DNA of 24,502 nucleotides from a virus: positions 1-24,502 of IMG/VR virus record IMGVR_UViG_3300028822_000091. The stretch is one strand, 5' to 3'. Within the stretch, counting starts at the first letter, position 1. Each line of letters opens with the position of its first letter. This document shows positions 1-24,502 of the stretch, in pieces. The translations under genes and the position numbers were made by a program. The notes beneath the pieces are model-generated. The model was not told the DNA's origin. It saw only the letters and a program-made list of their open reading frames with translations, and did no database searches.

Positions 1-145
1 CATCTCCATCAAAGTTTCTAGTGAAAATATTTATAACTTTAGCTGGCTCATAATTTCTACCAATAAGTACGTCGCCTATTTTAATTTCATTCGGGTGTTT
101 TTCTTCTCCACTAAAAAGCTTGCAAGTCGTTGAAATCATTAAACA
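1..145 (-). mobile_element. N-terminal part of an intein inside the left-edge gene (truncated by window)
   Basis: Forty-eight residues starting at Cys558 of the host frame fit splicing block A and the start of the Hint fold. They comprise CLMISTTCKLFSGEEK, then EIKIGDVLIGRNYEPAKV, then an I-F-x-R-x-x-D-G-D segment. The pattern Cys1-Leu, Thr at position 6, then hydrophobic, 'xGxxK', 'EIKIGDxLI' and 'xPxKV' is typical of class 1 inteins and related Hint domains. The upstream context GRWWEFGK is ordinary protein sequence, so the insertion point would be after Lys557. Blocks B, F and G, any homing endonuclease and the downstream extein lie outside the window. A non-splicing Hint domain at a protein C-terminus cannot be fully excluded. 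Confidence 0.72.
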
Positions 146-1816
146 TTTACCAAATTCCCACCAACGACCTTTCTTTATGGCCACTTCTTCTTCGCCAGAA
201 TATACACGCTGCAATTCTTCTTCTGATTCTTCAGATCCCAATAATGCTACACCAGGAATTGCAGTAAGCGGTTCTCCCTGCAACAAAGATGTAACACTAA
301 CTAAGCCTTGCCATGCTGCCAAACCAGCTAACGCACCTAAAGCAAATGGGCTTTTAACCTTAGATAACTTAGATCCACCCGGAAGAGAAGCTATCTTCTT
401 CCCTAGGCGACTCTCCCAAACCTTCTCGCCAGCAGAACCGGCTATCTCTTCTCTAACTCTTGCAAACAGCCTACCGCCTTCAACAGTACGCTTCTTTACG
501 GATTCCTGTATGCTCTTTTTAAGAAAGCCACCGTAGCCAGCAACACTAGCAGCTAACCCTCCAACACCTGCAAATCCAATAGCAGTTTTAGCCTCTAGCA
601 AACCAGGGGTTACTTCTGACTGTTCTTTCATTGAACGTGTCACGCCTGTAACGTCAGAAGCTTTTGCTCTCATTACATTTGCATCTGTACCTATTGCAGC
701 AGCGCCATGAAATAAACCATGCTCAAAGCGTGGAGCTATAGCAGCAAATAATCCTACTCCTGCACCAATCATAGCTCCTTTTTTAGAAAACGGGATACCA
801 GGAGCTTTAAATGCAAGACCACCAACAGCTGCACCAGCACCAGTTATAGCGGCAGATCCGACAGCAGTCCCTTCGCTACGCTGATAATCTAAATATTCTA
901 ATCCTTTCCATGCAGCACCAACTATTAAGGCTTTTTTAAGATAGCCACCAAACATTTGAGTTGCTGTGCCTTGCTTAACAGTAAGGTTTCTTATGCCTGG
1001 AAGCTTAGAAAGGTAATCCCCAACAACAGGAAGCTCAAATGGTTTACTTAAGAGAACGTTTAGCCTACCAGCAGTGGCAGCAGCTTTAGACCGCAACACA
1101 TTACTAGCAATTTTGCTCTTAGCTAGTCTTGCAGCATTTTGCTGTGAGAGTTTTATGTTTTTGCCGAATAGGGATATATTTCTTTCAATAGACTCGCCGA
1201 CTAAAAGTCTTTGTTCTCTTATTGCTAAATCTAAATTTTGCCGCCATTCAGGATATGGAATGCGAGTGCCAGCAGCTCTCCACTTAGACTTAAGCAGATC
1301 TTCATTAAGAGAGGCATGTTGTGGCATGTCCATACCGATTACGCGAGTATAGTAGTCTGCTATGCTAGAACCCTTTTGAGTTCCACCAGACATGCCCATA
1401 CCAACACCAACAACGTCTCCAGCAGCAGATCTAACTTCACCAAAGATAGATCCAGTCTTGGTTAAAGTTAAACCTTGTGCAGCCTGCTTGCCGAAACGAT
1501 TTTGTAAGAAAGCTGCATATGCACCGCTTTTAGCCTCAAAAGGAGCGACAGAGACATTTTTAAAAGATTCAAGTGGAGATAAAAACTCAGAAATCTTGAA
1601 TGTTCTTAGAACACCACCAGGAGAAACATTTTCTGCTGTCCTAATGGCACTAATGTACGAATCAAAAAGTCTCTTATCTTTACCTAATGGGATAAAGCCA
1701 GAACCTGCAGCTGCTCCAGCAACTAATGTAGTTCCAAATAGACTATTAGACTTTTGGTCTTGTTGCAGTTGAGGCTGTGGACCCAACGCTAAAGGCTGCC
1801 TTGGATCATACGCCAT
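1..1816 (-). CDS. Putative tape measure protein interrupted by an intein; 3' part beyond the window
   Basis: The frame is open without a stop from the ATG at 1816 to the left edge, giving 605 residues of a longer protein. The start follows AAGGTGAT seven bases upstream, an SD-like site overlapping the stop of the preceding gene. The N-terminus is Pro/Gln-rich, and there are several Gly/Ala-rich hydrophobic stretches (near residues 26-41, 320-362, 400-425 and 480-510) separated by Lys/Arg-rich segments. Its place directly after two chaperone-like ORFs is where contractile phages carry the tape measure gene, which sets tail length; that role is inference from order. After the motif GRWWEFGK (to residue 557) the sequence switches abruptly at Cys558 to an intein-like sequence, so the true protein continues on a C-extein that is not visible. 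It could instead be another membrane-active virion or ejection protein. I recognise no enzymatic domain. Confidence 0.6.
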   Translation of the reverse strand, partial: MAYDPRQPLALGPQPQLQQDQKSNSLFGTTLVAGAAAGSGFIPLGKDKRLFDSYISAIRTAENVSPGGVLRTFKISEFLSPLESFKNVSVAPFEAKSGAYAAFLQNRFGKQAAQGLTLTKTGSIFGEVRSAAGDVVGVGMGMSGGTQKGSSIADYYTRVIGMDMPQHASLNEDLLKSKWRAAGTRIPYPEWRQNLDLAIREQRLLVGESIERNISLFGKNIKLSQQNAARLAKSKIASNVLRSKAAATAGRLNVLLSKPFELPVVGDYLSKLPGIRNLTVKQGTATQMFGGYLKKALIVGAAWKGLEYLDYQRSEGTAVGSAAITGAGAAVGGLAFKAPGIPFSKKGAMIGAGVGLFAAIAPRFEHGLFHGAAAIGTDANVMRAKASDVTGVTRSMKEQSEVTPGLLEAKTAIGFAGVGGLAASVAGYGGFLKKSIQESVKKRTVEGGRLFARVREEIAGSAGEKVWESRLGKKIASLPGGSKLSKVKSPFALGALAGLAAWQGLVSVTSLLQGEPLTAIPGVALLGSEESEEELQRVYSGEEEVAIKKGRWWEFGKCLMISTTCKLFSGEEKHPNEIKIGDVLIGRNYEPAKVINIFTRNFDGD

Positions 1817-1821
1817 TTAAA

Positions 1822-2520
1822 TCACCTTTTGAATTTTTGTGCGGTATTCTGGTAAGACTTCTGCCATTGAGAAGTATCTTTGATGTTAGCTCTTTGGTGT
1901 CTAGTATCAAGGTCATGTAGCTCTTTGTTAGAAGATTTCATTATCTCTTCTATTGATTGTGCTTTATTATCATTGCTTTCGTCTAGTTTCGAAATAAATA
2001 ATTCTCTTTCAATTATATCTCGTTTTATACCTAAATGCTCAGCATTGATATAGACACTAAATAGCTCTGGAAGGTCCATTTTGTTTAAATCTTCAATAGT
2101 ATAGCCAGGCATTATCATACAGATAGTGCGCTTCATCACATCAATAGGAGAATACCTAGACTCTTCTCTCAAATAGCTAAGTGAATTGTTTGTATAATTT
2201 ATACTGTCATTTATATCTTGAGCGCCCGATAAATGAAACATAAGCTGCACTATGCTCTGAGGTATTCCAGCAGGAATATTACCGTGTAACAGAATAGAAT
2301 TATCAATAGAATACTCATTAAAGATAGATTCATAGATATCATTCTTCTCCGCTACTGTATCTGATATATTAAGAAGCGTCATAAATTGTAATATTTTCTT
2401 ATGAGGAGGGAGTTTGAAAGCTATGACTATCTCATCAGAGATTTTAGATACATAGATATTGCTATCCCCAGAGTGAATCTCTTTGACTAGAGAAACAACA
2501 TTTGGAGAGAACTCTATCAT
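1822..2520 (-). CDS. Tail assembly chaperone-like protein (second of pair)
   Basis: This 232-residue protein precedes the putative tape measure gene. Residues about 15-105 resemble the C-terminal half of the preceding protein. They share a short beta-rich segment (SNIYVSKISDEIVIAF, against DIFVCNFGERLFVYRY), a helical stretch, and a closing motif (IPAGIPQSIVQLMFHLSG, against MPAGLITMLFQQIQMNSG). The remainder is helical and charged. Tail assembly chaperones of long-tailed phages occur as a pair just before the tape measure gene and commonly end in a 'PAG...SG' helix; this role is inferred from that pattern and position. The ATG at 2520 has no properly spaced Shine-Dalgarno (TAAGGC directly abuts it), so translation probably depends on ribosomes ending at the TAA three bases before. 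The stop overlaps the SD of the next gene. Confidence 0.6.
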   Translation of the reverse strand: MIEFSPNVVSLVKEIHSGDSNIYVSKISDEIVIAFKLPPHKKILQFMTLLNISDTVAEKNDIYESIFNEYSIDNSILLHGNIPAGIPQSIVQLMFHLSGAQDINDSINYTNNSLSYLREESRYSPIDVMKRTICMIMPGYTIEDLNKMDLPELFSVYINAEHLGIKRDIIERELFISKLDESNDNKAQSIEEIMKSSNKELHDLDTRHQRANIKDTSQWQKSYQNTAQKFKR

Positions 2521-2523
2521 GCC

Positions 2524-3186
2524 TTACAACTTAATGGTGAACTGAGTAAGATATTCAGGATTCATAAAGCCAGAATTCATTTGGATTTGCTGAAACAGCA
2601 TAGTTATAAGGCCTGCTGGCATATTGTATAAAAAGGTTTCAGTAACTGAGGGAAATAGCAAACACTTCTGAATAAATATATGCTCAAGTTGGTCTTGAGT
2701 CATTTCGTCCATCCTGGTAGTCTTCTGCATCTGTGTCCATTCAATTCTCTTAAGATACCTGTATACAAAAAGCCTCTCTCCAAAGTTACACACAAAGATA
2801 TCTCCATGAGCTGATTTCCATGTTCTTATTTGTTCTTTAGAAGGGTGATTAGGAAAAGAAGCTTCCATTTGTTTAATAGTCCACTCAAGTCTTTCTTCTG
2901 GGTCTTCAGGAGGCTGATCTTGAATCGGTTCATCTTCATACATTGTATGATCGGGTTCTTCAGGAACACTTACTTCTTCTGGTTCTTCAGGAATAGGTTC
3001 TTCCACTGTAGATTTTGGTGGCGGACTAGCCAAAGATGCGTCTACGGGGATGTTGTCTCTGGCGTCTGCTTTGATTGCATCAGCAACAGAAAAAGAATCA
3101 ACAAAGCCAGCATCTCTAATTTTGGCATGTTCTTCAAGTTTATTTAACATCTCTACATCAACGTCTGGATGTCGTTTCTTATCCAT
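2524..3186 (-). CDS. Tail assembly chaperone-like protein (first of pair)
   Basis: This 220-residue protein starts at an ATG with AAGGAG six bases upstream. Residues about 55-95 form a Pro/Glu-rich linker (repeated EEP, PEEP and PPEDPEER patterns) after a short charged N-terminal part. Residues about 125-210 form the compact domain shared with the next ORF, containing GDIFVCNFGERLFVYRYL and the MPAGLITMLF...NSG motif. The position between the tube-like genes and the tape measure gene and the duplicated domain suggest the tail assembly chaperone pair. In many phages such a pair is joined by programmed frameshifting. Here both ORFs are in the same frame and are separated only by TAA GGC ATG, so expression must use termination and reinitiation, or rare readthrough. 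I see no slippery sequence at the junction. Confidence 0.6.
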   Translation of the reverse strand: MDKKRHPDVDVEMLNKLEEHAKIRDAGFVDSFSVADAIKADARDNIPVDASLASPPPKSTVEEPIPEEPEEVSVPEEPDHTMYEDEPIQDQPPEDPEERLEWTIKQMEASFPNHPSKEQIRTWKSAHGDIFVCNFGERLFVYRYLKRIEWTQMQKTTRMDEMTQDQLEHIFIQKCLLFPSVTETFLYNMPAGLITMLFQQIQMNSGFMNPEYLTQFTIKL

Positions 3187-3212: not shown

Positions 3213-4070
3213 TTAGACAACATTCCTAGCTATAAAAGTATACTCTTCTAAGATTGGTTGTCCAGAGGATTCTATGATTTGTGATTGGCCGATAAAACTA
3301 ACGCCCAATATTTTCTTAACGGTGTGATTAAACTGGTCACTAGAATAGTCACCATAAGTTATTGCAATGTCTATCTCAGGATATTGATCTGCTCTTCTAT
3401 GATTCCAAACATCTTCCTTCTCTATTGTTTCTCCAGTGCGTGGTCTTAAGTTCTTTGAAAATAATTGACTCCTGGTGCCTGCATTAGCTGGATCAGAACT
3501 AAACCAAATAGCATCTTCAAATTCTTCTGCCCATTGTTCAAAAGTATCATCGTCTAAAGTGCTAAGCTGGCGATGAAACTGATTAAGTCTTTTTCTATAA
3601 GTGCCGTCTTTTTCATATCTATCGCTTTGTGCTATAGCCTGTTCAACGTTATATTTCATCGCTTTTGAATTTTGTTCTTTCCTTATACTCTCTGCAAATG
3701 TTTCTACTTTCCCTGGGCTTTGAAATTTTGAACCTTCAAAACGCTTAGGCGTAGACACTCTTCCAGTCTGTTGTTGATTAATTACAGATTGTATTGGCCA
3801 AAAAAGATATCCAGCTTCTTTGAAGTTAATTGTTAAGCTTCCACTAACTAAGACATGGCCATCAGCTACAAAAGTATAATATTGAGAGGCATAGCCATAG
3901 ACTGGAGTTCTGGTTTGTTGAACATCAAACCTAATGTTCATTGCTTCGTCTATAAGAATATCGCCAAAATAAACTAATACATTTGAACTGCTAAAGTTAT
4001 CGAATTCATAATGAATAGAGCCTAAATTGCTATTCCCTAGCGCATTGCCATTTTGATCCAAAATACTCAT
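3213..4070 (-). CDS. Tail tube-fold paralog (tube-associated or baseplate protein)
   Basis: This 285-residue protein is the third of three consecutive proteins with a similar layout. Near residues 47-86 it has a segment ending in GHVLVSGSLTINFKEAGYLF, matching the 'RxISGSMIF' strand region of its two upstream neighbours. After a long helical insert (about residues 115-205, with many charged residues) it has PEIDIAITYGDYSSDQFNH, a 'GVSFIGQS' segment and a C-terminal EEYTFIARNVV. These correspond to the 'PPxDI...NEYG...', 'xxEFI' and 'xxYVARDI' segments of the neighbours. By analogy with tube-fold proteins that cap or initiate contractile tails, it may sit at a tube end; this is inference. The ATG overlaps the preceding stop by one base (TAATG) and has no strong SD, pointing to coupled translation. 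Confidence 0.55.
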   Translation of the reverse strand: MSILDQNGNALGNSNLGSIHYEFDNFSSSNVLVYFGDILIDEAMNIRFDVQQTRTPVYGYASQYYTFVADGHVLVSGSLTINFKEAGYLFWPIQSVINQQQTGRVSTPKRFEGSKFQSPGKVETFAESIRKEQNSKAMKYNVEQAIAQSDRYEKDGTYRKRLNQFHRQLSTLDDDTFEQWAEEFEDAIWFSSDPANAGTRSQLFSKNLRPRTGETIEKEDVWNHRRADQYPEIDIAITYGDYSSDQFNHTVKKILGVSFIGQSQIIESSGQPILEEYTFIARNVV

Positions 4071-4999
4071 TAGAAAAAGGGATTCCTTCTGTTTTTAGTG
4101 TTTATCTGTTTGTTATAGTCAGACATAGATGTTGCAGTATCTGCCCAGGCGTTCTCTATTCCATTTTTACCAGTTTTTCTATAACCAATAGGCCCCATTA
4201 GGTCTATATCTCTAGCGACATACTGCATAACGTTTTCAGAATAAATGTCTTCAACAGAAAAAGTAGCTCCATCTTGTATAAATTCTACACCATATAGCCC
4301 CATATAGGAAGAAGAACCATATTCGTTATTAAATACGAGGCTAATATCCAAAGGAGGCAATTGATCAGTTATCGCCGTAGAATCTTTGAGATAATCATAA
4401 TCTTTAACACCAGTGTTGTATTGGCCCTGATTTAATTTTAAAAAATCATAAAAAACATGATGGTTTACAACAGTAAAAATCATACTGCCTGAAATCGTCC
4501 TGCTTCCTCTTGTATAGCTTTTGGGATACACTCTGCCAAGTGATCGAGTAGGAAACTTTTCTCTAAATGTAGAATAAGAGAACGTATGAATAGTACCAAG
4601 AGGAAAAACAACCTCACCAGTGGCTTTTTGGATTGCACTCTCTGCCTTCTTAATTTCCTTTTCTAAATAAATCTTTTTGTCTTTAAGGCCACCAAGACTA
4701 TTGGTTATGTCAGAAGCTATAGCAATATTTGGCTGTGCATTGTTTACAATAGACCTTATGGTAAGATCAATATCATATAGCTCTTCAATAAATTGGTCTC
4801 TCATTTTAGCCAATAACTGAACATCACGTGGATTGGCGCGATAATGAGCGTAAATCTGAATATCAGCACCAGAATAAGAACCATGTCCAAACTCAGATGA
4901 AACTGCATTCTTATTAGGGGAAAGCTCTAGTGGGCTATTTGTTTCTTGCCGATAAGATGTTCTATCTTTTGGCAGCCAGAAGCTATCAGAATCACCCAT
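4070..4999 (-). CDS. Tail tube-fold paralog (tube-associated protein)
   Basis: This 309-residue protein has AGGAGG five bases before its ATG. The N-terminal 130 residues are helical and charged (MRDQFIEELYDIDLTIRSI, then KKIYLEKEIKKAESAIQKA, probably a coiled coil). From about residue 135 it parallels the tail tube protein upstream: GTIHTFSYSTFREKFPTRSL then TRGSRTISGSMIF, against GTLQGISYSVARDKAPIFT then GRGKRHIAGSMVF. Later come PPLDISLVFNNEYG, GVEFIQDGATFSVEDIYSEN and YVARDIDLMGP, against PPFDVILSGANEYG, RAEILNSGYGVSVDDIVSEH and FIATSISP. It therefore looks like a tube paralog with an added N-terminal coiled coil, perhaps a tube initiator or terminator. It lies after a hairpin that may reduce its expression relative to the tube gene. 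Confidence 0.6.
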   Translation of the reverse strand: MGDSDSFWLPKDRTSYRQETNSPLELSPNKNAVSSEFGHGSYSGADIQIYAHYRANPRDVQLLAKMRDQFIEELYDIDLTIRSIVNNAQPNIAIASDITNSLGGLKDKKIYLEKEIKKAESAIQKATGEVVFPLGTIHTFSYSTFREKFPTRSLGRVYPKSYTRGSRTISGSMIFTVVNHHVFYDFLKLNQGQYNTGVKDYDYLKDSTAITDQLPPLDISLVFNNEYGSSSYMGLYGVEFIQDGATFSVEDIYSENVMQYVARDIDLMGPIGYRKTGKNGIENAWADTATSMSDYNKQINTKNRRNPFF

Positions 5000-5731: not shown

Positions 5732-7603
5732 TTAGCCGACCGACAGAGAGATAGGCAAATGAATGTCTCGAATCTCAAATGCAGGCGAGACAGTAAGAGG
5801 AATTTCAACTTCCCCAGCCACTCTCATTGCGGCAGTTTGTATTACTTGAATCGGACTATACGAATTAATGTACTGAGCCTTCTTAGACTGAAGCATCAAG
5901 TTATCAATATCAGTTTGCATCGAAGCAATTCGTGCAGTAGAGCTTCCCTTGCCAATATAGGGCCTGAGAAGTGCTCTGGCACCATCAACAATCGATTTGA
6001 TAATTCTTACGGTACTAAGTCTTCTCCAGTCAGAATCTGATCTTGCGCCAGTAGGAGCATCCACGATCTCAACACCATTAGCAGTCCTACGGAAAATAAC
6101 ATAGCCCTTTCCAACAACAGAATCAATATCCTGTAGCGAGAAGATGTTAACCAATAATGCGCCAGAAATTATTTGTCCAGTAGGGGCAACATTTGGCTCC
6201 AAGCCAATATATCTACCAGCATAAAGAGCAGCAGCAGATTTCTGATAGCCTGCAGTGTCAGTGGCATTGCTCATAAATGGAGAGTCAGCAACAACACTGA
6301 TATACTTTCCTAAGTCTATAGGAATGTTATTGCTATCTTTCTGCTCTTCTCCATCCAAAAACTCAGTATCAGTAAAGATAAATCCTCCACCTGGCTCGCC
6401 AGATCGGAAAGTGTCCATACCCGCCATAAATTTATTACCGAGAACACCAGAGCCATTGTCATCACTATTAGCAATGCTATATTCTCCAGTAAGGCTATCA
6501 TAGGTAAGACTGGGCTCTTCACCTAACCATAGTGCCTTATCTTCGATTTTATTAGTCGAAGGAGGATTGACACCAATGACGCCAGTAGCATCGACGATAT
6601 CAGTACTATACTCGTGAAGCGCTCTTGCTAACTGATAGGCAAAATTAACTTCATGAAAATCAGCTTTGACTAGAGTTGTACCATCAATACCAGTGCTAGC
6701 ATCTGCGCTACCAACCGAAGGATAGATGTCCGCAGCAGAAAAAGCGCCGCTACCGTCGTTAAACCACCACCAGAAGTAATATTTGCCGAGATACTTTTCT
6801 ACATGAACCCTACCCAGAGCATCAACATCAGAACCGCCACTATAAGCACCAGCAGTGGGGTAAGTTTGACCGCCAGGAACCACAGGCGTAACAGCGCCGA
6901 AGCGAGTCCTTTGATCAACAACGTTAAGGTCGTCAAGAAATACATCCATAGGAACTAGAACGTCAAAGTTAAACTGGAGCATATCTTTATATGCAACATA
7001 TAGCTCTTCCCATAGTTCCATTTTAGAAAGACTTGTACCGCTTGATCCTTCTGTAACTGCTGTACCAGTCGCTGAGACGTCAGCCAAATTCACAAAAGAA
7101 CTAGCAGAACCGATATCTTCTTCAGTAGCAGTAGCACGAGTACCACTGACATACACCTCGCCGAGATCGATACCAGCATCATTATCAAAAACAGTTAGAT
7201 CATCACTATTGCGCTTAACAACAAGGTGATCAGCATCAGCATCATAATAAAGAGCATAATCATCTTCAACGTCGTCCTTCTTGGCAACAGTTTCAACTGT
7301 AATGCCTGAGGATCCAGTTTGATCGCCAATATGCTCGACTATGGCGGACTTGCCGCCAATTCTATAAAGCGCAACCTGAGTAGCGCCGCCACTGAAAGCC
7401 TCATACATACCTCGAAGCAGATTTCCATCCGATCCAAACTCAGCCTTAGCTACATTGGTAGTTGGCACAGTATACAGAGTGTTTGCAACACCCTTACTAG
7501 CCTGACCAATAACTAGGACAGTAGGAGCAGGAGAAGCTGCTTCAGGCCTGAGGTTCCCATCTAGCTTAGAGATATGTACTCTTGGGGTGTAATTTAAAGA
7601 CAT
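5732..7603 (-). CDS. Contractile tail sheath protein
   Basis: This 623-residue protein has GGGAGG five bases before its ATG. The N-terminus has the sheath-type beginning: APTVLVIGQASKGVANTLYT, a VAKAEFG segment, and LLRGMYEAFSGGATQVALYR. The C-terminal third matches the sheath core expected to interlock subunits: GYVIFRRTANGVEIVDAPTG, RRLSTVRIIKSIVDGARALL, RPYIGKG and a final beta segment EFEIRD-like (AFEIRDIHLPISLSVG). The middle is Asp/Gly/Ser-rich and probably forms surface-exposed insertions. Length is close to the T4 sheath (about 660). On contraction the sheath drives the tube through the cell envelope. The tube gene follows after 16 bp. Confidence 0.88.
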   Translation of the reverse strand: MSLNYTPRVHISKLDGNLRPEAASPAPTVLVIGQASKGVANTLYTVPTTNVAKAEFGSDGNLLRGMYEAFSGGATQVALYRIGGKSAIVEHIGDQTGSSGITVETVAKKDDVEDDYALYYDADADHLVVKRNSDDLTVFDNDAGIDLGEVYVSGTRATATEEDIGSASSFVNLADVSATGTAVTEGSSGTSLSKMELWEELYVAYKDMLQFNFDVLVPMDVFLDDLNVVDQRTRFGAVTPVVPGGQTYPTAGAYSGGSDVDALGRVHVEKYLGKYYFWWWFNDGSGAFSAADIYPSVGSADASTGIDGTTLVKADFHEVNFAYQLARALHEYSTDIVDATGVIGVNPPSTNKIEDKALWLGEEPSLTYDSLTGEYSIANSDDNGSGVLGNKFMAGMDTFRSGEPGGGFIFTDTEFLDGEEQKDSNNIPIDLGKYISVVADSPFMSNATDTAGYQKSAAALYAGRYIGLEPNVAPTGQIISGALLVNIFSLQDIDSVVGKGYVIFRRTANGVEIVDAPTGARSDSDWRRLSTVRIIKSIVDGARALLRPYIGKGSSTARIASMQTDIDNLMLQSKKAQYINSYSPIQVIQTAAMRVAGEVEIPLTVSPAFEIRDIHLPISLSVG

Positions 7604-7620
7604 ATTTACCTCCCTAATGT

Positions 7621-8322
7621 CTATATTTTAATCGCAGCATTAAGTCCTATCTGCTTAATTGTCTGCGAAGAAACATTGAAGAGTTTCTCATGTCGAACAA
7701 AGAACGACATGGGATACCTTATAAGTTTTAAAGTTTCATGAGAAGCTAATACTTCTCTATCGCCTATTCCTTCTTGAACAACTTTAAACCCATGCGTACC
7801 AAATAAAGGCAAACTAAAATGCATTAAGTCTTCGAACCACAGTGCAGTGTCCATTGCAACATGAGATTCTCTTGCATATACATAAAAGGTTACCCAGCTA
7901 TCATAAGGCAACACATATGTTTGAAGCTCCTCACCAGGAACTGTTGGGTGAGGACCAACGCTTTTAAGTAAAGGCCTGACGGCTTTGATACCTCCGATTC
8001 CGGCAGGTCCTCTGTCTAATCGACCAGGGACTCTACTTTTCAAGAAATAAGTAACTGTTCTTGTTTTTATGGTTTCTGGCGGAATATCTTCCGTAAATAA
8101 CAACCTCTTATCTTCGTCAATACCTTCAGAATCTTGCTTTAGGCTAATAGCCTTATCAATAAGTTTGAAAAAATAGCTAAATGGATAACTTTCTAGTGAA
8201 AACTCTTTGTTGACTGTTTCAATATGCTTTTCGATTAATGTATTCGTGTCTAATTCTTCTTTCGTGAGCCTTGTCGTTAACGATTTTTCATCATCGTATG
8301 TGATTTCATCTATTCTCTGCAT
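7621..8322 (-). CDS. Neck or tail-completion (tail terminator-like) protein
   Basis: This 233-residue protein, counted from ATG 8322, lies just before the sheath gene, where head-tail joining and tail terminator genes usually sit. I chose this start because GGAG lies eight bases upstream; a GTG nine codons further upstream (8349) is possible but would lengthen the overlap. Visible features are an acidic and helical first half, then TRTVTYFLKSRVPGRLDRGP, LQTYVLPYDSWVTFYVYARE, a DTALWFEDLMHFSLPLF segment and LKLIRYPMSFFVRHEKLFNV. The alternating beta segments and one long helix are compatible with a tail terminator fold, but I cannot identify the family. It overlaps the upstream gene by 17 bases, suggesting coupled translation. 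Confidence 0.5.
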   Translation of the reverse strand: MQRIDEITYDDEKSLTTRLTKEELDTNTLIEKHIETVNKEFSLESYPFSYFFKLIDKAISLKQDSEGIDEDKRLLFTEDIPPETIKTRTVTYFLKSRVPGRLDRGPAGIGGIKAVRPLLKSVGPHPTVPGEELQTYVLPYDSWVTFYVYARESHVAMDTALWFEDLMHFSLPLFGTHGFKVVQEGIGDREVLASHETLKLIRYPMSFFVRHEKLFNVSSQTIKQIGLNAAIKI

Positions 8323-8854
8323 ACCAAACACTCCAGCGCCGCTCTTCACTAGCTCTTACTCTCCAATACTCTATTCTTCCAAAATCTGACCTAAAAGCAT
8401 CCGCACTAAAAACCTTAAAGAACTTTTGTCTTTGCTTAGGAGACACTACATCTCCATCTGCGTCTGTTTTAAGAATTATTAAATAATCATCATCAGTTAT
8501 ATCTACATTGTGCTCTATATAAAAATAAGCTTTATCGTATTCTTTATTTTGCCCAGGCTCTCTGCTATACATTGTATCGTCCTGGAAATAATTTATTACA
8601 TGTTCGTCCCAGTAAAAACCATGCCCTCTACAGTATTGGCAAAAATAGTCTCTATCTGGCTCATTAGTTATTTTATCTCGACACGGACAAGTTATCAAAT
8701 TACCATCAGAATCTCGTCTCATCTTGCGCAATAATCCAACTCTGCCTTTAGCTATTTCTACGCGACTGCCATCTAGTAGATTTTTCATCTCTTTGCGCAG
8801 GTCTATCTCTTTAATACCGCTAGAGGAGTATAGGCTTTTGTATGGATCTACCAC
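8306..8854 (-). CDS. Neck protein with a CPC...CxxCxGxG zinc-type motif
   Basis: This 182-residue protein starts at GTG 8854, with AGGAGAGGAAA immediately upstream; the start lies inside the last codons of the preceding gene (7-base overlap). Residues 55-80 contain CPCRD and then FCQYCRGHG, four closely spaced cysteines plus a histidine, like a treble-clef or rubredoxin-like zinc site. The rest is mixed: an N-terminal helix (LRKEMKNLLDGSRVEIAKGR) and later beta segments (KAYFYIEHNVDITDDDYLII, FFKVFSADAFRSDFGRIEYW). Between adaptor-like and tail-completion-like genes, a head-completion or stopper role is plausible. The family is not recognised from sequence alone. Confidence 0.5.
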   Translation of the reverse strand: MVDPYKSLYSSSGIKEIDLRKEMKNLLDGSRVEIAKGRVGLLRKMRRDSDGNLITCPCRDKITNEPDRDYFCQYCRGHGFYWDEHVINYFQDDTMYSREPGQNKEYDKAYFYIEHNVDITDDDYLIILKTDADGDVVSPKQRQKFFKVFSADAFRSDFGRIEYWRVRASEERRWSVWYAENR

Positions 8855-9537
8855 TTTCCTCTCCTATTCTTAGGAACATAAGTTCTATACTTTCTTCTCG
8901 AACTTCTCATATCGTGTCTATACGTTTCTGTATTAGCAATAGGCCTCTCGCCTCTAAAGACTGGAGACCATTCTCTATTGACAGATATAGCATCACTGGA
9001 TAGTGCGCCTTTAACTGTATATTGAGACTTTTCTGCACCAAACCTTCCTAGCTCACCACCAGATTGCAACACACTTAGCCATCCATCAACACACTCTTCT
9101 AAATTATTTAGACGATCTCTTATCATATCGTCATTAGCAAACTTAGAGACAGACAAGTCGCCTAAAGTCTTCTTAAAACCACCCACCAGTGCTCCGTCGC
9201 CACTGAGTGCTTGTAGTAGCATTAACTGAGCCTTGCAGATCGTATATCCCTTTCTAGCCTCTTTAAAATATTTACTATTTTCTATAGTCGCCATAAACAT
9301 ATTTGCATTGGCAGATAAGCTAGCTTCAAAAATAGCTAAGTTTATAGTATCGTCTGTTATGTCTTTTGCTATTGGTCCTAAGCTCAACCTCAACTGAATT
9401 ACACTTGCGTAGAGAGGACTATATGTCGTCGTAAAGCAATATTCAGAATCAGAAGATAAAGAAGACCCGTCTACTGCCTTAATGTCTTCAGACAAATATA
9501 AAGTAACTCTATTGTTTCCTAATAAAACACTTGCCAA
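8848..9537 (-). CDS. Head-tail adaptor-like protein
   Basis: This 229-residue ORF has no usable ATG near its start. TTG at 9537 is preceded by AGGGTGAT seven bases away and by an in-frame TGA at 9546-9544, so TTG is the likely initiator. The segment GPIAKDITDDTINLAIFEAS and the helical region to about residue 135 resemble the alpha-helical adaptor (connector) proteins that dock below the portal. The C-terminus is strongly basic (MRSSRRKYRTYVPKNRRGKW), which could contact DNA or the portal. It is first in the neck cluster, after a 100-bp gap with a promoter candidate. The assignment rests on helicity and synteny. Confidence 0.45.
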   Translation of the reverse strand: MASVLLGNNRVTLYLSEDIKAVDGSSLSSDSEYCFTTTYSPLYASVIQLRLSLGPIAKDITDDTINLAIFEASLSANANMFMATIENSKYFKEARKGYTICKAQLMLLQALSGDGALVGGFKKTLGDLSVSKFANDDMIRDRLNNLEECVDGWLSVLQSGGELGRFGAEKSQYTVKGALSSDAISVNREWSPVFRGERPIANTETYRHDMRSSRRKYRTYVPKNRRGKW

Positions 9538-9595
9538 ACTACATCACCCTATCTGAGGTTTATGGTTAAGTACTGGCCTATATCTTTCTTTTATT

Positions 9596-9604
9596 AGTAT
9601 ACCA
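9596..9604 (-). promoter_or_regulatory. Extended -10 promoter candidate in the 100-bp gap before the neck genes
   Basis: The gap 9538-9637 is the second longest non-coding stretch in the window. On the minus strand it contains TGGTATACT, an extended -10 (TGn plus TATACT) sixty bases before the TTG start at 9537. No good -35 lies 17 bp upstream; TTGTCA is 23 bp away. No terminator hairpin is visible after the preceding stop. The rest of the gap is AT-rich leader. Confidence 0.35.
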
Positions 9605-9637
9605 CACTAGAGGGAAATAAATTTTGACAAGAGAATA

Positions 9638-10720
9638 TTATTGGATTTGTATAGTGAGGACATTGCCGCTAACATCAAGCACAGTGGCTATTTCACCTGC
9701 TGCAGAAATTTCTGGATCACCATTAACTGCAGTTGCTATGACCCTAACGGTTTCAGGCGTTATGGTTGTCGGATCTAAATTTTTATTAAATTTTACTTCA
9801 ATGGTTACAATTGATTCTGGATCTAAGTTGGTGGCTCCATCTACAGGAGTTATTTCAACGATCATCAACGGAGAAGCTTCTTCAGAAGCAATTGACTCTA
9901 TACCGGTTGTTGAGCGTTCAGAAGGGGGGACAACAATAGAGCCACTTCCAGTATAGAATTGAAATGAGTAATTAGTATCCATAAGCTCATAAGGCTTTAC
10001 GATTGCGCTCCATTTGTCTCCAGAAGTGTGAGTAGCGTCTTTATCAAAAAATACACAAACCCCATTTTCTAATTCTCTCTTTCCGGTAGAAGTGAGTCCT
10101 TCAAAAGTAGTAAGAGGGTCAGATCCTTTCCACCAAACATATTCAGCTGCTCCTGTTTCGCCAGCAGATGAAATACGAATAAAGTATTGCTCAGATGCAT
10201 CTCCAGTAAAAGTGCCGCAGAAGTTAGCAGATTCGTTTGTCCCCACTTCTAACTTAGTATCAAATACACTTCTAGTAAAAATACCTGAATCAAAATCACT
10301 ATCAGGGCTAGTATCGCCAGCAACTAAGACGGTATATTTAACATTTGCACGAAAAGGAACTTCAGGAGTGAAGATAGCGGCTGTATTCCAGAGTGCACCG
10401 TCTCCATCGTAATCCTTTGTAGAATCATCAATCAAACCACCACTAGCATTCCTTCTTTCGAACCTTATAGTACCTTTGACCCTACCTCCATAATAAGGCG
10501 AAGAAAGTACGTCTAACTGTTGTAAAAAAGACTCTGGTTCAAATGGTTGCAATTCTCCATTAAAGAGAACATCATTGTCAGGCGCGGAAACAACAAAACT
10601 ACCTTCGTTAATGCTATTAAGATCTATTTCTTGATCGAACACCACAACTACACTATCACCAACTGGCATTCCTTGAGAACCGTGCGCAGGATATACGTCT
10701 ATTATATTCGGAGATGTCAT
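9638..10720 (-). CDS. Ig-like (Big_5-type) domain virion protein
   Basis: This 360-residue protein has a bacterial Ig-like domain at each end. The N-terminal one starts PNIIDVYPAHGSQGMPVGDS and continues VVVFDQEIDLNSIN; the C-terminal one (from about residue 285) reads VEITPVDGATNLDPES then VEVKFNKNLDPTTITPETV. The signatures 'P.dG...v....i.v.F...ld..ti....' match the Big_5/SbsA Ig-like family. The middle carries FTPEVPFRANVKYTVLVAG, typical of the end of such a domain, then a beta-rich region with WWKGSDPLTTF. Ig-like proteins decorate phage capsids, necks or tails and can bind carbohydrate; the location here is inferred from the gene lying just after the capsid cluster. Its ATG directly abuts the stop of the previous gene (TAAATG). 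Confidence 0.65.
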   Translation of the reverse strand: MTSPNIIDVYPAHGSQGMPVGDSVVVVFDQEIDLNSINEGSFVVSAPDNDVLFNGELQPFEPESFLQQLDVLSSPYYGGRVKGTIRFERRNASGGLIDDSTKDYDGDGALWNTAAIFTPEVPFRANVKYTVLVAGDTSPDSDFDSGIFTRSVFDTKLEVGTNESANFCGTFTGDASEQYFIRISSAGETGAAEYVWWKGSDPLTTFEGLTSTGKRELENGVCVFFDKDATHTSGDKWSAIVKPYELMDTNYSFQFYTGSGSIVVPPSERSTTGIESIASEEASPLMIVEITPVDGATNLDPESIVTIEVKFNKNLDPTTITPETVRVIATAVNGDPEISAAGEIATVLDVSGNVLTIQIQ

Positions 10721-11026
10721 TTAAAAATCATCCTCTTCTTCGTAGATGTCAAAGAAGCATTCATCTTCCTCTTCTTCGAACATATTAGTTTCAAGGTTAT
10801 CGTTTTCGTCTTTATTTTGATACAACTTAAGGAGGGCTTTTCTTTTTTCGCTAAGTTTATTTTTCTTAGCTTGTTCTTTACACTCTTTGACTATTTTTTC
10901 AGCAGTCTCTTTAGGAATATTGACAAACTTATCAAAATTATCTTTATCGAATTTGATATATTTTTTATCTAATTCTATTTTACCAAAGTCTACAAATACG
11001 AGATCACCATCTTTTTTCTCAGACAT
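10721..11026 (-). CDS. Small protein with acidic tail, unknown function
   Basis: This 101-residue protein starts at an ATG with AGGAG six bases upstream and overlaps the previous gene by eight bases. The N-terminal half has short beta-like segments (DLVFVDFGKIELDKKYIKF), the centre is a Lys-rich helix (ETAEKIVKECKEQAKKNK), and the end is extremely acidic (MFEEEEDECFFDIYEEEDDF). It forms a small unit with the acidic gene before it, downstream of the capsid terminator and promoter. I recognise no family. The acidic tail could act as a docking peptide or DNA mimic, but that is speculation. The same DNA encodes the SD (GAGG) of the Ig-like gene. Confidence 0.7.
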   Translation of the reverse strand: MSEKKDGDLVFVDFGKIELDKKYIKFDKDNFDKFVNIPKETAEKIVKECKEQAKKNKLSEKRKALLKLYQNKDENDNLETNMFEEEEDECFFDIYEEEDDF

Positions 11027-11552
11027 TTAATTCTCCTATTTTATTATCGACTTCTTTGAGAATGCTTTTTCGATTCTTATTGTCTATCTCTAATTCTTTT
11101 ATCGCCTTTAATAAACCGATAAGCTCTAGATCGTTTTTTAAACTTTTAATTATTTTTCTGCTAGTATTTCCGTTTTTAGACAAGATAGTATCGGCTTTTT
11201 CATAATCTTTTATAGATGGTTCTATTTCTTTATTTTCTTCACTTTTCTCTTCATCATCAGAAACAGTAACGGAAACAATGTCATAAGTAGAATTGTCTTC
11301 CTCTTCTATGTCACTTATATCTGGCGTGCTGTCTTCTGAACCTTGTTTGTATAGAGACTTTATGTCGTTACCTTCTATATCAACAATATCAATACACCTT
11401 GTCCGATAGGACTCTTTAATTATATCATAAGACTGCTTATCTAATGTCTTTAAATCAATAATTGGAGAGATGTCATTCCCATGTATGAAAATATCTAAAT
11501 CCGGTAGGCCCCAAAAAGAAACCTCCAGTAATTTTATTTGTATGTATCTCAT
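11019..11552 (-). CDS. Acidic protein of unknown function after the capsid gene
   Basis: This 177-residue protein has an apparent N-terminal folded part (MRYIQIKLLEVSFWGLPDLD to about residue 58). Then follow an acidic, Ser/Glu-rich linker (about 70-115, with DISDIEEED and SDDEEKSEENKE) and a Lys/Glu/Ile-rich helical C-terminus (KIIKSLKNDLELIGLLKAIK), probably a coiled coil. I recognise no family. Its start region is unusual: the ATG at 11552 overlaps the TGA of a seven-codon ORF generated by a tandem duplication, and the best SD (AAGGAG) is positioned for that upstream ORF. It is the first gene after the capsid terminator and is likely transcribed from the overlapping promoter. Confidence 0.7.
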   Translation of the reverse strand: MRYIQIKLLEVSFWGLPDLDIFIHGNDISPIIDLKTLDKQSYDIIKESYRTRCIDIVDIEGNDIKSLYKQGSEDSTPDISDIEEEDNSTYDIVSVTVSDDEEKSEENKEIEPSIKDYEKADTILSKNGNTSRKIIKSLKNDLELIGLLKAIKELEIDNKNRKSILKEVDNKIGELNV

Positions 11553-11573
11553 ATTATTTGTATGTATCTCATA
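11534..11573. repeat. 20-bp perfect tandem duplication over a translation start
   Basis: Two adjacent identical 20-bp copies, ttatttgtatgtatctcata on the plus strand, lie at 11534-11553 and 11554-11573. Read on the minus strand each copy carries an ATG and begins the peptide MRYIQI. Because 20 is not a multiple of three, the copies are in different frames. Confidence 0.95.
11549..11572 (-). CDS. Seven-codon leader ORF (MRYIQII) coupled to the next gene
   Basis: The upstream copy of the 20-bp duplication gives ATG at 11572, nine bases after AAGGAG, and the frame closes at TGA 11551-11549. That TGA overlaps the ATG of the 177-residue gene (ATGA). The arrangement is classical for translational coupling. 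Whether the peptide matters, or the ORF is only a by-product of the duplication, is unknown. Confidence 0.45.
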   Translation of the reverse strand: MRYIQII

Positions 11574-11594
11574 TAACTAAACTCCTTTTTTATT

Positions 11595-11623
11595 ATTATA
11601 TACAAAAAAAGGGGAGATGTGAA
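11595..11623 (-). promoter_or_regulatory. Sigma70-like promoter overlapping the capsid terminator
   Basis: On the minus strand TTCACA (11623-11618, five of six matches to TTGACA) is followed by a 17-bp spacer and TATAAT (11600-11595). The -35 lies in the loop edge and descending arm of the terminator hairpin, and the U-tract lies in the spacer. The predicted start would be near 11588, leaving a very short leader with AAGGAG before ATG 11572. It would drive the two acidic genes and the Ig-like gene. Confidence 0.55.
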
Positions 11624-11637
11624 GAACACATCCCCCC
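11604..11637 (-). terminator. Intrinsic terminator after the major capsid gene
   Basis: On the minus strand an 11-bp stem GGGGGGATGTG/CACATCTCCCC (ten Watson-Crick pairs and one G-T wobble) with loop TTCTT is followed by seven T residues. It starts 32 bp after the capsid stop codon. The plus-strand reading has no T-tract, so it is one-directional. Confidence 0.9.
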
Positions 11638-11668
11638 TCAAACACAGGAGTTAACAATAAGTTAAGAT

Positions 11669-12913
11669 TTAAAAGATAGCAGTAGTGGCATCAATAGTGT
11701 CGTATTCGCCAGCAGCAGAAATAACGCTCTGAGCAGGAAGAGTAATTTCATTATACTCAATAGGAATACTGCGCATAACAGAGATACCCTTACCTTCATC
11801 GTACATGAAGAGTCCATATTTCTCTTTTAGCTTAATCTTAGTCAATTCAACCGACTTGTCTCGCCAGTCTTCCATAGAAACGCCTTCCTCAACAATCAAA
11901 GCACCAATGGCATTAGAGTCAGCAAGGATGATGTCGCCAAGCTCGTTGTCGACGTCAAATGGCATAAATGGGGAAACCAGCACGGTGAGTGGGTATGGGA
12001 AATAACTAGGAACGTTTGGCTTGCTCGTAAGAGTAGGATCAATCGCACTAAGCTCAGTTGCAGACTCACCAGCAACGTTACTACCAGGAGTAAACGAACC
12101 TAGGCCAGTCTTAGTAATCTGAGACTGGATAAGCTTGCCTTGCTTAGGTGGTTGAGCCTGTTGGAATAGAGTAGCATTGCCGATATTCTGTGCAACTTTT
12201 GCAAGCAGAGGATCGATTAGCCACATGCTCCACATCATAGGCGACATAAGAAGGATATTAGGAATAAATCCTTGCTGCATCTGGAATGCATAAGCCTTCA
12301 TGAGGTCGCGCATAGTCATAGAGCCATTCGCTGCGCCCTGAGCATTACGGCCAGTAGTAACACCAAACATCGAATCAGTTGGGTTCTTGTTGTCAAATAG
12401 CGTGACGCCCATACCGCTCATCATATTAAAGCCTTTTTGCTCTTTCTTACGAGCGAGAGCACGAGACATTTGCCTGATGTGAGTATTGATGATATCGAAA
12501 GTCGCATGGTCCAACATTTCGTCGGAGAGAGCAACCGCGAGACCTGTTTTACCAATACCTACGGTCATCGAACCAGGAGTGATGTTCAGAGAACGCTCGG
12601 GGTACGACTGACCTTCAGCAATCTCGGCAGCTTCCATTGCAGAGATCGATGGGAAATGCCACTCAGTAAGTGGCTGGTTTTCAATAGTGTCCAATAACGA
12701 AGGAATGATCAAAAGAGGCTCAACTGGCTCAACAGCGATTGTTTGAACAATGCGGGGAAGCCATTCACGAGCATTAGGAGTCATAATTGCGTCATTGACA
12801 GATAGTTGGCGATTAGCAACCTTGTTATAGCCGCCGCTCATCCATGTGTCTCGCCACATGTCGAAATCGTCGCCAAATAGTTCTCCGTATGAATATTGTT
12901 TATGTTTAGGCAT
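11669..12913 (-). CDS. Major capsid protein (HK97-fold type)
   Basis: This 414-residue protein has AGGAGGAG before its ATG and lies after the protease-scaffold and one capsid-associated gene. It has a short N-terminal arm (MPKHKQYSYGELFGDDFDMW), then MTPNAREWLPRIVQTIAVEP, and an EWHFPSISAMEAAEIAEGQS segment like the extended loop region of HK97-fold capsids. A central helical part follows (TIMRDLMKAYAFQMQQGF-like, with PNILLMSPMMWSMWLIDP), then YPLTVLVSPFMPFDVDNELG with DIILADSNAIGALIVEEGVS and a beta-rich end containing KYGLFMYDEGKGISVM. This last block, covering P-domain and A-domain strands, is typical of myovirus capsid proteins. A strong terminator follows, fitting an abundantly transcribed gene. 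No cleavage site is assigned; proteolytic maturation is expected because a prohead protease is encoded nearby. Confidence 0.82.
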   Translation of the reverse strand: MPKHKQYSYGELFGDDFDMWRDTWMSGGYNKVANRQLSVNDAIMTPNAREWLPRIVQTIAVEPVEPLLIIPSLLDTIENQPLTEWHFPSISAMEAAEIAEGQSYPERSLNITPGSMTVGIGKTGLAVALSDEMLDHATFDIINTHIRQMSRALARKKEQKGFNMMSGMGVTLFDNKNPTDSMFGVTTGRNAQGAANGSMTMRDLMKAYAFQMQQGFIPNILLMSPMMWSMWLIDPLLAKVAQNIGNATLFQQAQPPKQGKLIQSQITKTGLGSFTPGSNVAGESATELSAIDPTLTSKPNVPSYFPYPLTVLVSPFMPFDVDNELGDIILADSNAIGALIVEEGVSMEDWRDKSVELTKIKLKEKYGLFMYDEGKGISVMRSIPIEYNEITLPAQSVISAAGEYDTIDATTAIF

Positions 12914-21792: not shown

Positions 21793-24129
21793 CTAAAAGT
21801 TACTTCTCGATGGTTTATTTTTAGATCTTCCTGATCTGGTATTACTAACCGTTGACCTATTGTAACCTTTTTTCGATCCAAAATCACTACGTCCTTTATT
21901 TAAAAGGCCAAGACTGTTTCTATCAAGCTTGCTATACATCCTTCTTTGCACTGCATCTGGTTTTTGTTTTTTTGTTGGTTCAGCAAGGCCGCGTTCGCCA
22001 TGGTCTTCTTCATCGAAATCTTGGTCTCCTTTTAAGGGATTGTTTGCGACAGCCCCGCCAAGAATATATTCTCTCTTAAATAAATCAGCAAACTCAAGCT
22101 GAAAGGCTACAACTGCCAAGTTAAAAGCATCTAATCTATGGTCCCCCACGGCAGTATCTAATAAACCAAACTTAGGAATATTTGTTTCTGTATATCTTTC
22201 AATCATATAGTTTCTAAGCTGTTTCTCAAGCACAGAGTCATGCTCAGAAATATCAATTCTATTCTGTTCGAACATTCTAATAGAGGCGTCAACCATAAAA
22301 GGTTTAGCTGCTTTCTTAACTTTTTCGCCAGTTATAATATCCCTAACTTCTACTTTAGCTCCAGAATCATATTTTTTTACTACATATCTCAAATTAGCAA
22401 TCTCATCGTTTGGCATAGCTTTCTGAGACATATGCAACAAAAGCTCATGGTTCGTGCTTCCATTTCCACTATCTACGTACATAAAATCAGGCCGCCATTT
22501 CTTATATATTTCAACAACTTTAGCAACACTATTCAACTGAGTAAATGCAGCACCACCAACATGCACTGCTTCGACTAATCTAAACTTTCTTAAATGAGGA
22601 TTATGCCCAAGAACAACAATTTCTGCGCCGTGTTTCTCATTCCAGTCAACACCCATACAATAAGACCAAAACCCTTTTTTGGTTTCATCTTCATACTTAT
22701 ATTTAGTCAGTGCTCTATCTATGTATTTAGGCTTATACACACCAGCGCTAATATCAGCAAATGAAGCTTCATATTCACGATTCCAACGTTCTTCGGTCAT
22801 ATTATGGCGTTGCTTTTCTACTTCTTTATGCCAAGGCAACACCCTATAAGTAAAATGGAATTCTTTATAGTCAGGACTAGAATTACATAACTTGTAGAAT
22901 GGCGTAGTAGTGAAACCTAGTGGAGTGGAAAATGCGATTAGTTTTGTATCTGGACTAGTAGACAATAGAGGTATAATTGCGCCTGTAAAAGCCTGTTCAG
23001 ACACATAGTCTGCCTCTTCAATCAAGACAATGTCTGCATCCTGTCCACGGATAGTAGTACCATCTCCACCTCTAGCAACTGAACCAGCAGCAAATCCTTT
23101 TAAGATAGAGTCATTTTTAAGCATAAGTTCATGAGGGCTTCTTTTAAATTTCATAATCGCCGATTTTAAAGCAGGGCTGGCATAAAAGAAATCTCTAACC
23201 CTAACAAAGATATTTTCAATTTGCTCAATCATTGGGGCAGCAAGGATTATTCTTACTCTAGGGATAGTTAGCATTTTATGGATAAGTTGAACACAAATCG
23301 AGGCAGTATTGTGAGATATAATGTCGTCTGCTATTAAAGTATGAGTCTCTGGAACAGTGAGATCGAATGTCTCTTCTTCTCCGGCATATTCTATAGATTT
23401 AATTTCATCCCATTCTACGTCTAAACTGCTATTAGACAAGACAGCTACAGTATCGCCAACTTCTAAATTCTTTAGTTCTATCCAATCTGCCCAACCATCA
23501 TAACTGCAAATCTTAAAAAATGGATGATTGTCGGTGATTTTTGTTTCTTTTCCAGAATATGTCTTAAGTTTATAGACAGGCTTTGTTCCATTGCTCCATA
23601 TCCTATAAATATCAGAAAACTTTACATTAAAGTTTTCTTCATCAAAAGTTGCTATGCTTGGTTTATGCACCATATTAACCAAATCTTTAGCAAATATTCT
23701 ACCTTTTTTGGTTAAAACTTTAGAGTCCCCAGAAATACACTTCCCCGTCCTCCTGCTCCATCTAAGAACTTGTCTAGGAGATGTACACCTAAGAACTAAT
23801 TTTTGGTAATCTCTTGGAACAAAAGGAGCATTATCTTTTGGGTTTATGATAAAATGCTCAGAAAAAAACACAGGATCAAGCATAGATTTAACTTTAAATA
23901 ACTCTTCAGGTGAATACTTATGCTCTAACTGCTTAGGTATTATGTTTTTTTTGATGCCCTCACAATCTACCCGAAACTCGCCCTCCGCTCTTTTGCCATC
24001 TGGATATACGAATTGTTTGTATTTCTTTAATTGATTTAATACGCATTCGTGGCATTCTGGTATAACTTCATCTATGTCAAAAGGTAAATTAAGTCTTCTT
24101 AAGACTGCAAGTGAATCTTCTTTTCCCAT
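21793..24129 (-). CDS. terL: Terminase large subunit (ATPase-nuclease) interrupted by a mini-intein
   Basis: The precursor is 778 residues; removal of residues 131-274 leaves a 634-residue terminase. The extein join restores the Walker A motif RRTGK|TAS. Upstream is FVPRDYQKLVLR, the adenine-binding type Q motif. Downstream are the Walker B-like DIVLIEEAD (residues 366-374; Glu371 stands where Asp is usual, followed by Glu372) and a coupling motif KLIAFSTP. The C-terminal nuclease has acidic residues in MGVDWNEKHG (Asp495), FMYVDSGNG (Asp553) and GDHRLDAFNLA (Asp663/Asp667), in RNase H-like order. The tail after about residue 700 is Lys/Arg/Ser/Asn-rich. The protein translocates DNA into proheads and cuts it. 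The start has TAGGA six bases upstream. Activity requires intein removal because the P-loop threonine lies in the C-extein. Confidence 0.93.
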   Translation of the reverse strand: MGKEDSLAVLRRLNLPFDIDEVIPECHECVLNQLKKYKQFVYPDGKRAEGEFRVDCEGIKKNIIPKQLEHKYSPEELFKVKSMLDPVFFSEHFIINPKDNAPFVPRDYQKLVLRCTSPRQVLRWSRRTGKCISGDSKVLTKKGRIFAKDLVNMVHKPSIATFDEENFNVKFSDIYRIWSNGTKPVYKLKTYSGKETKITDNHPFFKICSYDGWADWIELKNLEVGDTVAVLSNSSLDVEWDEIKSIEYAGEEETFDLTVPETHTLIADDIISHNTASICVQLIHKMLTIPRVRIILAAPMIEQIENIFVRVRDFFYASPALKSAIMKFKRSPHELMLKNDSILKGFAAGSVARGGDGTTIRGQDADIVLIEEADYVSEQAFTGAIIPLLSTSPDTKLIAFSTPLGFTTTPFYKLCNSSPDYKEFHFTYRVLPWHKEVEKQRHNMTEERWNREYEASFADISAGVYKPKYIDRALTKYKYEDETKKGFWSYCMGVDWNEKHGAEIVVLGHNPHLRKFRLVEAVHVGGAAFTQLNSVAKVVEIYKKWRPDFMYVDSGNGSTNHELLLHMSQKAMPNDEIANLRYVVKKYDSGAKVEVRDIITGEKVKKAAKPFMVDASIRMFEQNRIDISEHDSVLEKQLRNYMIERYTETNIPKFGLLDTAVGDHRLDAFNLAVVAFQLEFADLFKREYILGGAVANNPLKGDQDFDEEDHGERGLAEPTKKQKPDAVQRRMYSKLDRNSLGLLNKGRSDFGSKKGYNRSTVSNTRSGRSKNKPSRSNF
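23308..23739 (-). mobile_element. Mini-intein in the terminase Walker A motif (GK^T site)
   Basis: Residues 131-274 (144 aa) form a complete Hint splicing domain. Block A is CISGDSKVLT with Cys1. Block B is GKETKITDNHPFF, with the TxxH signature at Thr199-His202. A segment ELKNLEVGDTVAVL follows. Block F is ETFDLTVPETHTLIADD with His263, and block G ends IISHN (His273-Asn274). The +1 residue is Thr275. The length and the short B-to-F spacing leave no room for a homing endonuclease, so this is a mini-intein. GK^T/S sites in ATPases are a classical intein target. Confidence 0.93.
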
Positions 24130-24145
24130 AATAGTCCTATTATTT

Positions 24146-24502
24146 TTACATGTGAGCGAAAGCGGCTTCTCTTCCTAAGACAGAACGACTTGCCATCATT
24201 CCTCTATTCATAGCGCTTAATGATTGTTGTCTCATAGTGGCTGCTTTGCGTGTTCTAAAAGCAGTAGCATCATTTACCCAATTGAGGTGACGTTTTTGTC
24301 GCTCAGATGCCACTAGTTTATCAGCAAACTGAAAACCAATTCGAGGAACAGCTCTTCCTATCTCATCGCCAGCAAAACCACCTAACAAGCCACCGACGAC
24401 AAAACCAACAGGCGCTAGAATTCCACCACTAATAGCGCCAGCAAATGCAGCACCAGCAACAGAGCCGACTTTAGCGCCAACAGCAAACCCAGCGGTTGCT
24501 CC
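24146..24502 (-). CDS. C-terminal part of a glycine-zipper protein upstream of the terminase (partial)
   Basis: The frame is open from the right edge to TAA at 24148-24146, giving 119 residues. It begins with a run of small residues (GFAVGAKVGSVAGAAFAG, then GFVVGGLLGGFAGDEIG), a glycine-zipper pattern typical of membrane-spanning or membrane-lining helices. A polar, Arg-rich helical part follows (SERQKRHLNWVNDATAFRTR, then MNRGMMASRSVLGREAAFAH). The start lies outside the window. A virion protein that enters or crosses the host membrane during ejection is possible; no family is recognised. The terminase gene follows after 16 bp. Confidence 0.75.
   Translation of the reverse strand, partial: GATAGFAVGAKVGSVAGAAFAGAISGGILAPVGFVVGGLLGGFAGDEIGRAVPRIGFQFADKLVASERQKRHLNWVNDATAFRTRKAATMRQQSLSAMNRGMMASRSVLGREAAFAHM

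Follow-up and report, generated by a model that had tools for sequence, protein, structure and literature searches.

A class-1 intein cut by the edge of a viral contig lies in an orf145-like virion protein gene that is an intein hotspot with nine sites

The left edge of the window, by which we mean the whole stretch of 24,502 bases analysed here, cuts a class-1 intein after Lys557 of an orf145-like large virion protein of a 0305phi8-36-like contractile-tailed jumbo phage. The intein would be removed by protein splicing and spread by homing, and we put the probability of this reading at about 0.92. The element is of a known kind, and the surprise lies in its host gene and in the density of insertion sites: the host gene family is a multi-site intein hotspot.

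The intein start at the left edge

The open reading frame 1816..2 (minus strand) starts with ATG, encodes 605 residues and is open at the contig end. It reads AIKKGRWWEFGK up to the join and CLMISTTCKLFSGEEKHPNEIKIGDVLIGRNYEPAKVINIFTRNFDGD after it, the change beginning at Cys558 (codon 145..143), in agreement with the position at which the earlier note had drawn it. Segment 145..2 (minus), which directly follows GRWWEFGK, constitutes the first 48 residues of a class-1 intein, with the cysteine at position 1 in a block A context (CLMISTTCKL). An HMM built on the N-terminal 52 residues of six inteins from other contigs at the same site (site a), with the window copy excluded, matches residues 558–604 with E=7e-22, and the next match in a six-frame search of the window has E=0.2. 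The 48-residue stub alone has no Pfam match. The window is the entire virus record, and blocks B, F and G of this copy fall beyond its end; an exact search for a common 30-mer near position 1 returned no viral contig that overlaps past the edge. We infer that the copy is complete there. The element is, as previously noted, the second intein of the window, the first being located in the terminase gene (Table 1).

Table 1. Features of the window. A slash within a motif marks a splice junction.
Feature	Position	Strand	Evidence
Intein, N-terminal 48 residues, site a	2..145	minus	Block A CLMISTTCKL, then EIKIGDVLIGR and PAKVINIFTR; cut by record end; HMM E=7e-22
N-extein, residues 1–557 of orf145-like virion protein, ending in conserved motif SGEEEVAIKKGRWWEFGK	146..1816	minus	Match to L002; family alignments
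Small gene just upstream, second tail-chaperonin position (orf144-like)	1822..2520	minus	Synteny with ME3 gp34 and 0305phi8-36; no clear family match
Acidic small gene, first tail-chaperonin position (orf143-like)	2524..3186	minus	Synteny with ME3 gp33; phrog_29362 E=8e-4 only
Tail sheath protein	5732..7603	minus	phrog_16991 E=2e-55
Terminase large subunit, carrying the window's first intein	21793..24129	minus	phrog_2 E=4e-33
Complete terminase mini-intein, about 145 aa, RRTGK/CISGDS...ISHN/TASICVQ	23308..23742	minus	PF14890 E=1e-17; TIGR01445 and TIGR01443 above cut-off

A complete allele of this intein is found in L002, a 120-kb contig that is 48% identical along the window ORF (tblastn E=1e-171 over residues 9–605). 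Its single ORF of 1554 residues reads GRFWEFGR/CLAEHT at the window's site, continues through a mini-intein of 166 residues and leaves it at PFLVHN/SSFEGDKIQYF, with the terminal HN/S followed by the C-extein. The window and L002 inteins are about half identical over their first 48 residues. The L002 intein is predicted to adopt the HINT fold: its AF2 model has a mean pLDDT of 88.9, and the top Foldseek matches in the PDB are solved inteins, with Prp8, PhoCDC21-1, DnaB and gp41-1 among the best and target-normalised TM-scores of at most 0.82. Intein-free relatives run straight across site a with GRWWEFG[RK][ST]P[FY]EG or close variants (for example GRWWEFGR/SPYEGE, GRWWEFGR/TPFEGG and GRWWEFGK/TPYEGT), and the +1 residue is Ser or Thr in most of them. 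The comparison with intein-free homologs thus finds the exteins continuous across the join, which lies on a strongly conserved extein motif, as the earlier note had suspected.

Hint folds are shared more widely, and the L002 model also matches hedgehog 1at0 and BIL domains, so that the window stub might be read as an ordinary C-terminal autoprocessing domain of hedgehog or BIL type. In seven relatives, however, the homologous domain is followed by HN/S and then by an entire C-extein, which can be aligned with intein-free proteins; this refutes an ordinary C-terminal domain for the relatives and leaves it scarcely credible for the window. A copy that is degenerate or truncated, with a homologous Hint start and a frame that breaks past the edge so that the protein ends or splicing is lost, is also highly improbable. 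Half of the window element lies beyond the record end, and alleles that lack the endonuclease or are of odd size (151, 166 and 246 residues) indicate that decay happens in the family. On the other hand, block A and the IKIGDVLIGR stretch are intact and the frame is open throughout the 48 visible residues, and a dead intein would break a virion protein that all relatives have kept. A class-1 intein is therefore the reading adopted for the window.

An intein hotspot with nine sites

Relatives of the host gene were collected in three viral-contig scans whose main search patterns lie upstream of the sites, with no selection for inteins, and were reduced to 73 distinct relatives by clustering the core at 95% identity. 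Inteins were located by comparing each ORF with intein-free references. Fourteen of the 73, a count drawn from IMG/VR fragments, carry 21 complete inteins in the host gene, distributed over nine sites (Table 2), and many of these contain a LAGLIDADG endonuclease. The earlier note had called the placement of the intein unusual, which holds but understates the case for a family invaded at this number of sites. No earlier description of inteins in this virion protein, or of its insertion sites, was found in a literature search that covered few subscription papers.

Table 2. Intein insertion sites in the host gene, with the relatives (L numbers) that carry an intein at each.
Site	Junction	Carriers
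a	GRWWE.GR/[ST]	L002, L032, L033, L034, L035, L106, L138 and the window
a2, five residues past a	[YF]xG/S	L138, L140
b	GGxxG(A)/S	L034, L138 (offset by one codon when aligned)
f	GDPY/TK	L134
c	RLPGxGY/SALHPE	L035, L141
g	AWEMF/S	L129
h	LYGRE/SAFW	L138
d	LPGxDW[LV]GW/SP	L034, L037, L045, L141
e	KLKLVQTMG/S	L053

All 21 complete inteins begin with Cys1 and contain blocks A, B, F and G, block B having the form TxxH with its Thr at about residue 62–68; the C-terminal junction is HN/S in 20 and HN/T in one. Their lengths range from 144 to 457 residues, that is, from mini-inteins to full inteins. At site a, a DOD endonuclease is inserted between blocks B and F in L033, L034, L035 and L106 and is absent from L002 and L032, and the window copy ends short of this region. 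Sequence, fold and boundaries all place the host-gene inteins in class 1, with either a DOD endonuclease or what remains of one. The density is highest in L138, in which one ORF holds four inteins, two of them only five residues apart, with four separate PF14890 stretches. The 2610-residue ORF of L034 holds three, with three PF14890 stretches and both PF14890 and LAGLIDADG_3 above cut-off. The insertions listed separately as b and b2 may represent a single site that the alignment has displaced. The residue at site d is His in empty alleles and Ser in invaded ones. A further contig, L062, was picked up by the pattern WWEFG[KR]C and rejected as a chance match, with no long ORF containing the motif.

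The inteins occupy well-conserved positions, with a mean conservation of 2.81 bits around the nine sites and 2.18 bits at random core positions (p=0.0019). Beside the intein start in the window stand complete allelic inteins, empty sites and a patchy distribution among relatives. On an extein tree built from 330 residues on each side of the motif, in which the window row is 46% filled, the state changes eight times for site a and 12 times for the presence of any intein. The inteins of L032 and L034 are 48% identical, versus 33–35% for their exteins; this greater closeness, together with the eight changes at site a, is as expected of mobile elements.

To place the host gene among other carriers, 64 whole records were searched with PF14890 (Intein_splicing). 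Of 40 matched places, 18 lie in the host gene, which takes up about 5% of the 5.47 Mb. The binomial probability of this enrichment (p about 2e-13) is indicative only, as the records are related, incomplete and were fetched because they hold the host gene. Other identified carriers are the large terminase (six of the 64 records, and the window), ribonucleotide reductase, a UvsX/RecA-like recombinase and one tail protein, to which a DNA polymerase III-like and a further reductase-like ORF, recognised from sequence alone, can be added. With carriers in several other genes, the lineage is therefore intein-rich in general, and the host gene is its most frequent carrier.

Identity of the host gene

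The gene order of the window (sheath, tube-like genes, two small chaperonin-like genes, host gene) is the same as in Acinetobacter phage ME3, and the presence of a tail sheath gene implies that the operon comes from a contractile-tailed phage. The host-gene homolog of ME3, gp35, carries an annotation that relates it to YP_001429636 of Bacillus phage 0305phi8-36, an accession whose number is two higher than that of the chaperonin (YP_001429634) and two lower than that of the hub protein (YP_001429638). In 0305phi8-36, orf143/144 are the chaperonins, orf146 the tape measure and orf147 the hub (PMC2147016). Judged by ME3 synteny, the published gene order and the accession order, the intein host is the homolog of orf145. 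Its product is most likely a virion component encoded between the tail chaperonins and the hub, either the tape measure or a protein travelling with it.

Searches of orf145-like proteins against Pfam, NCBIfam and solved structures gave nothing beyond the intein domains, and PHROGs returned only a weak tail-lysin match for the window ORF and nuclease matches to an insert in L005. The conserved C-terminal core (797 residues) is predicted to be mostly helical (AF2, mean pLDDT 79). Foldseek found no PDB match to this model, VIA-align rows had Z<6 on short helical stretches and were judged uninformative, and the four viral models that match the core at E<=5e-10 all lack functional names. A scan of bacterial genomes with the family profile gave no confirmed member.

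The earlier note had labelled the host gene as the putative tape measure, a label that is not established. The tape measure of the published account is the adjacent gene, orf146, whose own assignment is doubtful. That the host protein is the tape measure itself is possible, but we hold it to be the less probable case. The protein is long, and its gene directly follows the G/GT chaperonin genes in the window and in ME3, which is the canonical position of a tape measure. The N-terminal length of the protein also varies widely, the motif beginning anywhere from residue 387 to residue 1152 among relatives. Against this stand the lack of any match to a tape-measure family, the mostly helical C-terminal core without a counterpart in the PDB, and the assignment of the 0305phi8-36 tape measure to orf146, made mainly from tail length (PMC2147016).

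The neighbour that bears the published label shows features that recall a two-barrel RNA polymerase. In 26 aligned relatives, the orf146-like protein has invariant or nearly invariant K...K, R-x-P, DxDxD and K residues, the aspartate motif occurring in versions such as IGDFDGD and RGDYDGD. The only natural proteins that its profile matches in the PDB are RNA polymerase beta' subunits (E=0.87), aligned exactly on the DxDxD motif; we take these to be from the RNA polymerase of phage AR9. An hhalign comparison with a YonO alignment also lands on the DFDGD motif, with a non-significant P=0.075. The polymerase known in 0305phi8-36 is orf99, not orf146. From these residues, it is possible that the orf146-like protein is an unrecognised virion RNA polymerase. 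The tape-measure assignment published for orf146 may thus be mistaken, and the intein host could be the real tape measure after all. The orf146-like gene follows the host gene downstream, past the left edge of the window; examples in relatives are L003:13756-18396, L097:12139-17517 and L143:12085-16518.

The host protein also contains insertions of other kinds. A Cas4/RecB-like nuclease domain lies inside the host protein of L005 (ORF 6671-12856, residues 1447-1567; phrog_1706 E=7e-17), and L061, L129, L134, L138 and L139 have a nuclease insert at the same place by sequence resemblance. An apparent SNase-like stretch, without Pfam confirmation, is present further along in L002 and in gp33 of Bacillus phage vB_BauM_KLEB27-3. 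Such nuclease inserts in the virion protein appear to be exchangeable. In KLEB27-3, a region between gp31 and gp33 (L028:10137-11235), which encodes the HNH-like gp32, interrupts the host gene after NPIRNQMPDW, close to intein sites f and c. The arrangement looks like a mobile intron; no Rfam intron family matched the split gene at gathering score.

Proposed mechanism and significance

Protein splicing of the site-a inteins is presumed from their motifs. The precursor would be translated as one chain, in which Cys1 would start an N-to-S acyl shift, the acyl group would pass to the +1 Ser/Thr of the C-extein, and the terminal Asn would cyclise, with the exteins joined to the intact motif GRWWEFGK-[ST]P[YF]EG. 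DNA homing is the likely route of spread, with several site-a alleles carrying a LAGLIDADG endonuclease and others having presumably lost it to become mini-inteins. The host gene would likewise have been targeted at no fewer than eight other positions. A probable reason is that the gene is essential, occurs in every relative seen and shows strong local conservation. Splicing might in addition act as a maturation gate, the protein becoming competent for assembly into the tail or virion only after all inteins excise and the invaded motifs forming an unrecognised functional centre; we regard this as very unlikely.

Standard accounts place inteins in enzymes of replication, repair and nucleotide metabolism, a preference usually explained by the conservation of these genes, their sharing between hosts and their essentiality. 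Nine sites in a virion protein suggest that essentiality and local conservation, rather than DNA metabolism as such, can make a hotspot. In this family, alleles that are empty, hold a mini-intein or hold an intein with an endonuclease form a natural series in which intein invasion, decay and interference in co-infecting phages can be studied. The conserved motifs GRWWEFG[RK][ST]P[FY]EG, RLPGxGY and LPGxxWxGWHPxVDL probably mark functional centres of the host protein. The inteins are also a warning that gene callers can split or mislabel the host gene.

Comparison with known systems

The host-gene inteins share with class-1 DOD inteins and mini-inteins (PF14890, TIGR01445, TIGR01443) the Cys1, the TxxH of block B, block F, the HN/Ser or HN/Thr junction and the HINT fold, as well as in-frame insertion at a conserved extein motif and empty alleles in relatives. 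They differ in their host: here it is a virion protein, and its conserved core matches no recognised domain. A terminase is an ATPase and nuclease and a classic intein host, whereas a large virion protein is not. Both are late genes, and terminase inteins are carried by the same lineage, including the window's own. Among described cases, BtI1, a relative of 0305phi8-36, has an intein in its large terminase (PMC2147016), and TerL of cyanophage Mic1 has two (PMC7156551).

The haloarchaeal MCM gene (CDC21), with four intein sites a–d (PMC10643990), is analogous in having several non-allelic sites in one gene and a patchy distribution. At MCM-d, Ser of the invaded allele stands in place of Pro of the empty one (PMC10643990), which resembles the change between His and Ser at site d. 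MCM is, however, a replicative helicase with four sites, while the virion gene has nine, with up to four inteins per ORF. Phage inteins have been described in terminases, reductases, polymerases, helicases and a dCTP deaminase, and the interruptions of structural genes in the papers covered are mainly introns (PMC10448857, PMC7886860). Delta and Zeta crAss-like phages are rich in introns and inteins (PMC7886860), and ICP1 has tape-measure introns (PMC10448857). As in the host gene, mobile self-splicing elements are concentrated in essential late genes, structural ones included; in the published examples, structural genes carry mainly introns (group I, or HEG-bearing in ICP1) and the inteins are in TerL, whereas here inteins dominate in one virion gene.

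Other inteins and window genes

The terminase mini-intein of the window apparently sits in the Walker A loop. An intein also occurs in another virion protein, at L146:1149-3515 (minus), a homolog of window 4999..4070 (phrog_9206/phrog_34314). Just before the terminase gene, window 24146-24502 (minus) encodes the C-terminus of a protein with a glycine-zipper stretch that is cut by the right edge and bears a weak likeness to tail or tape-measure families.
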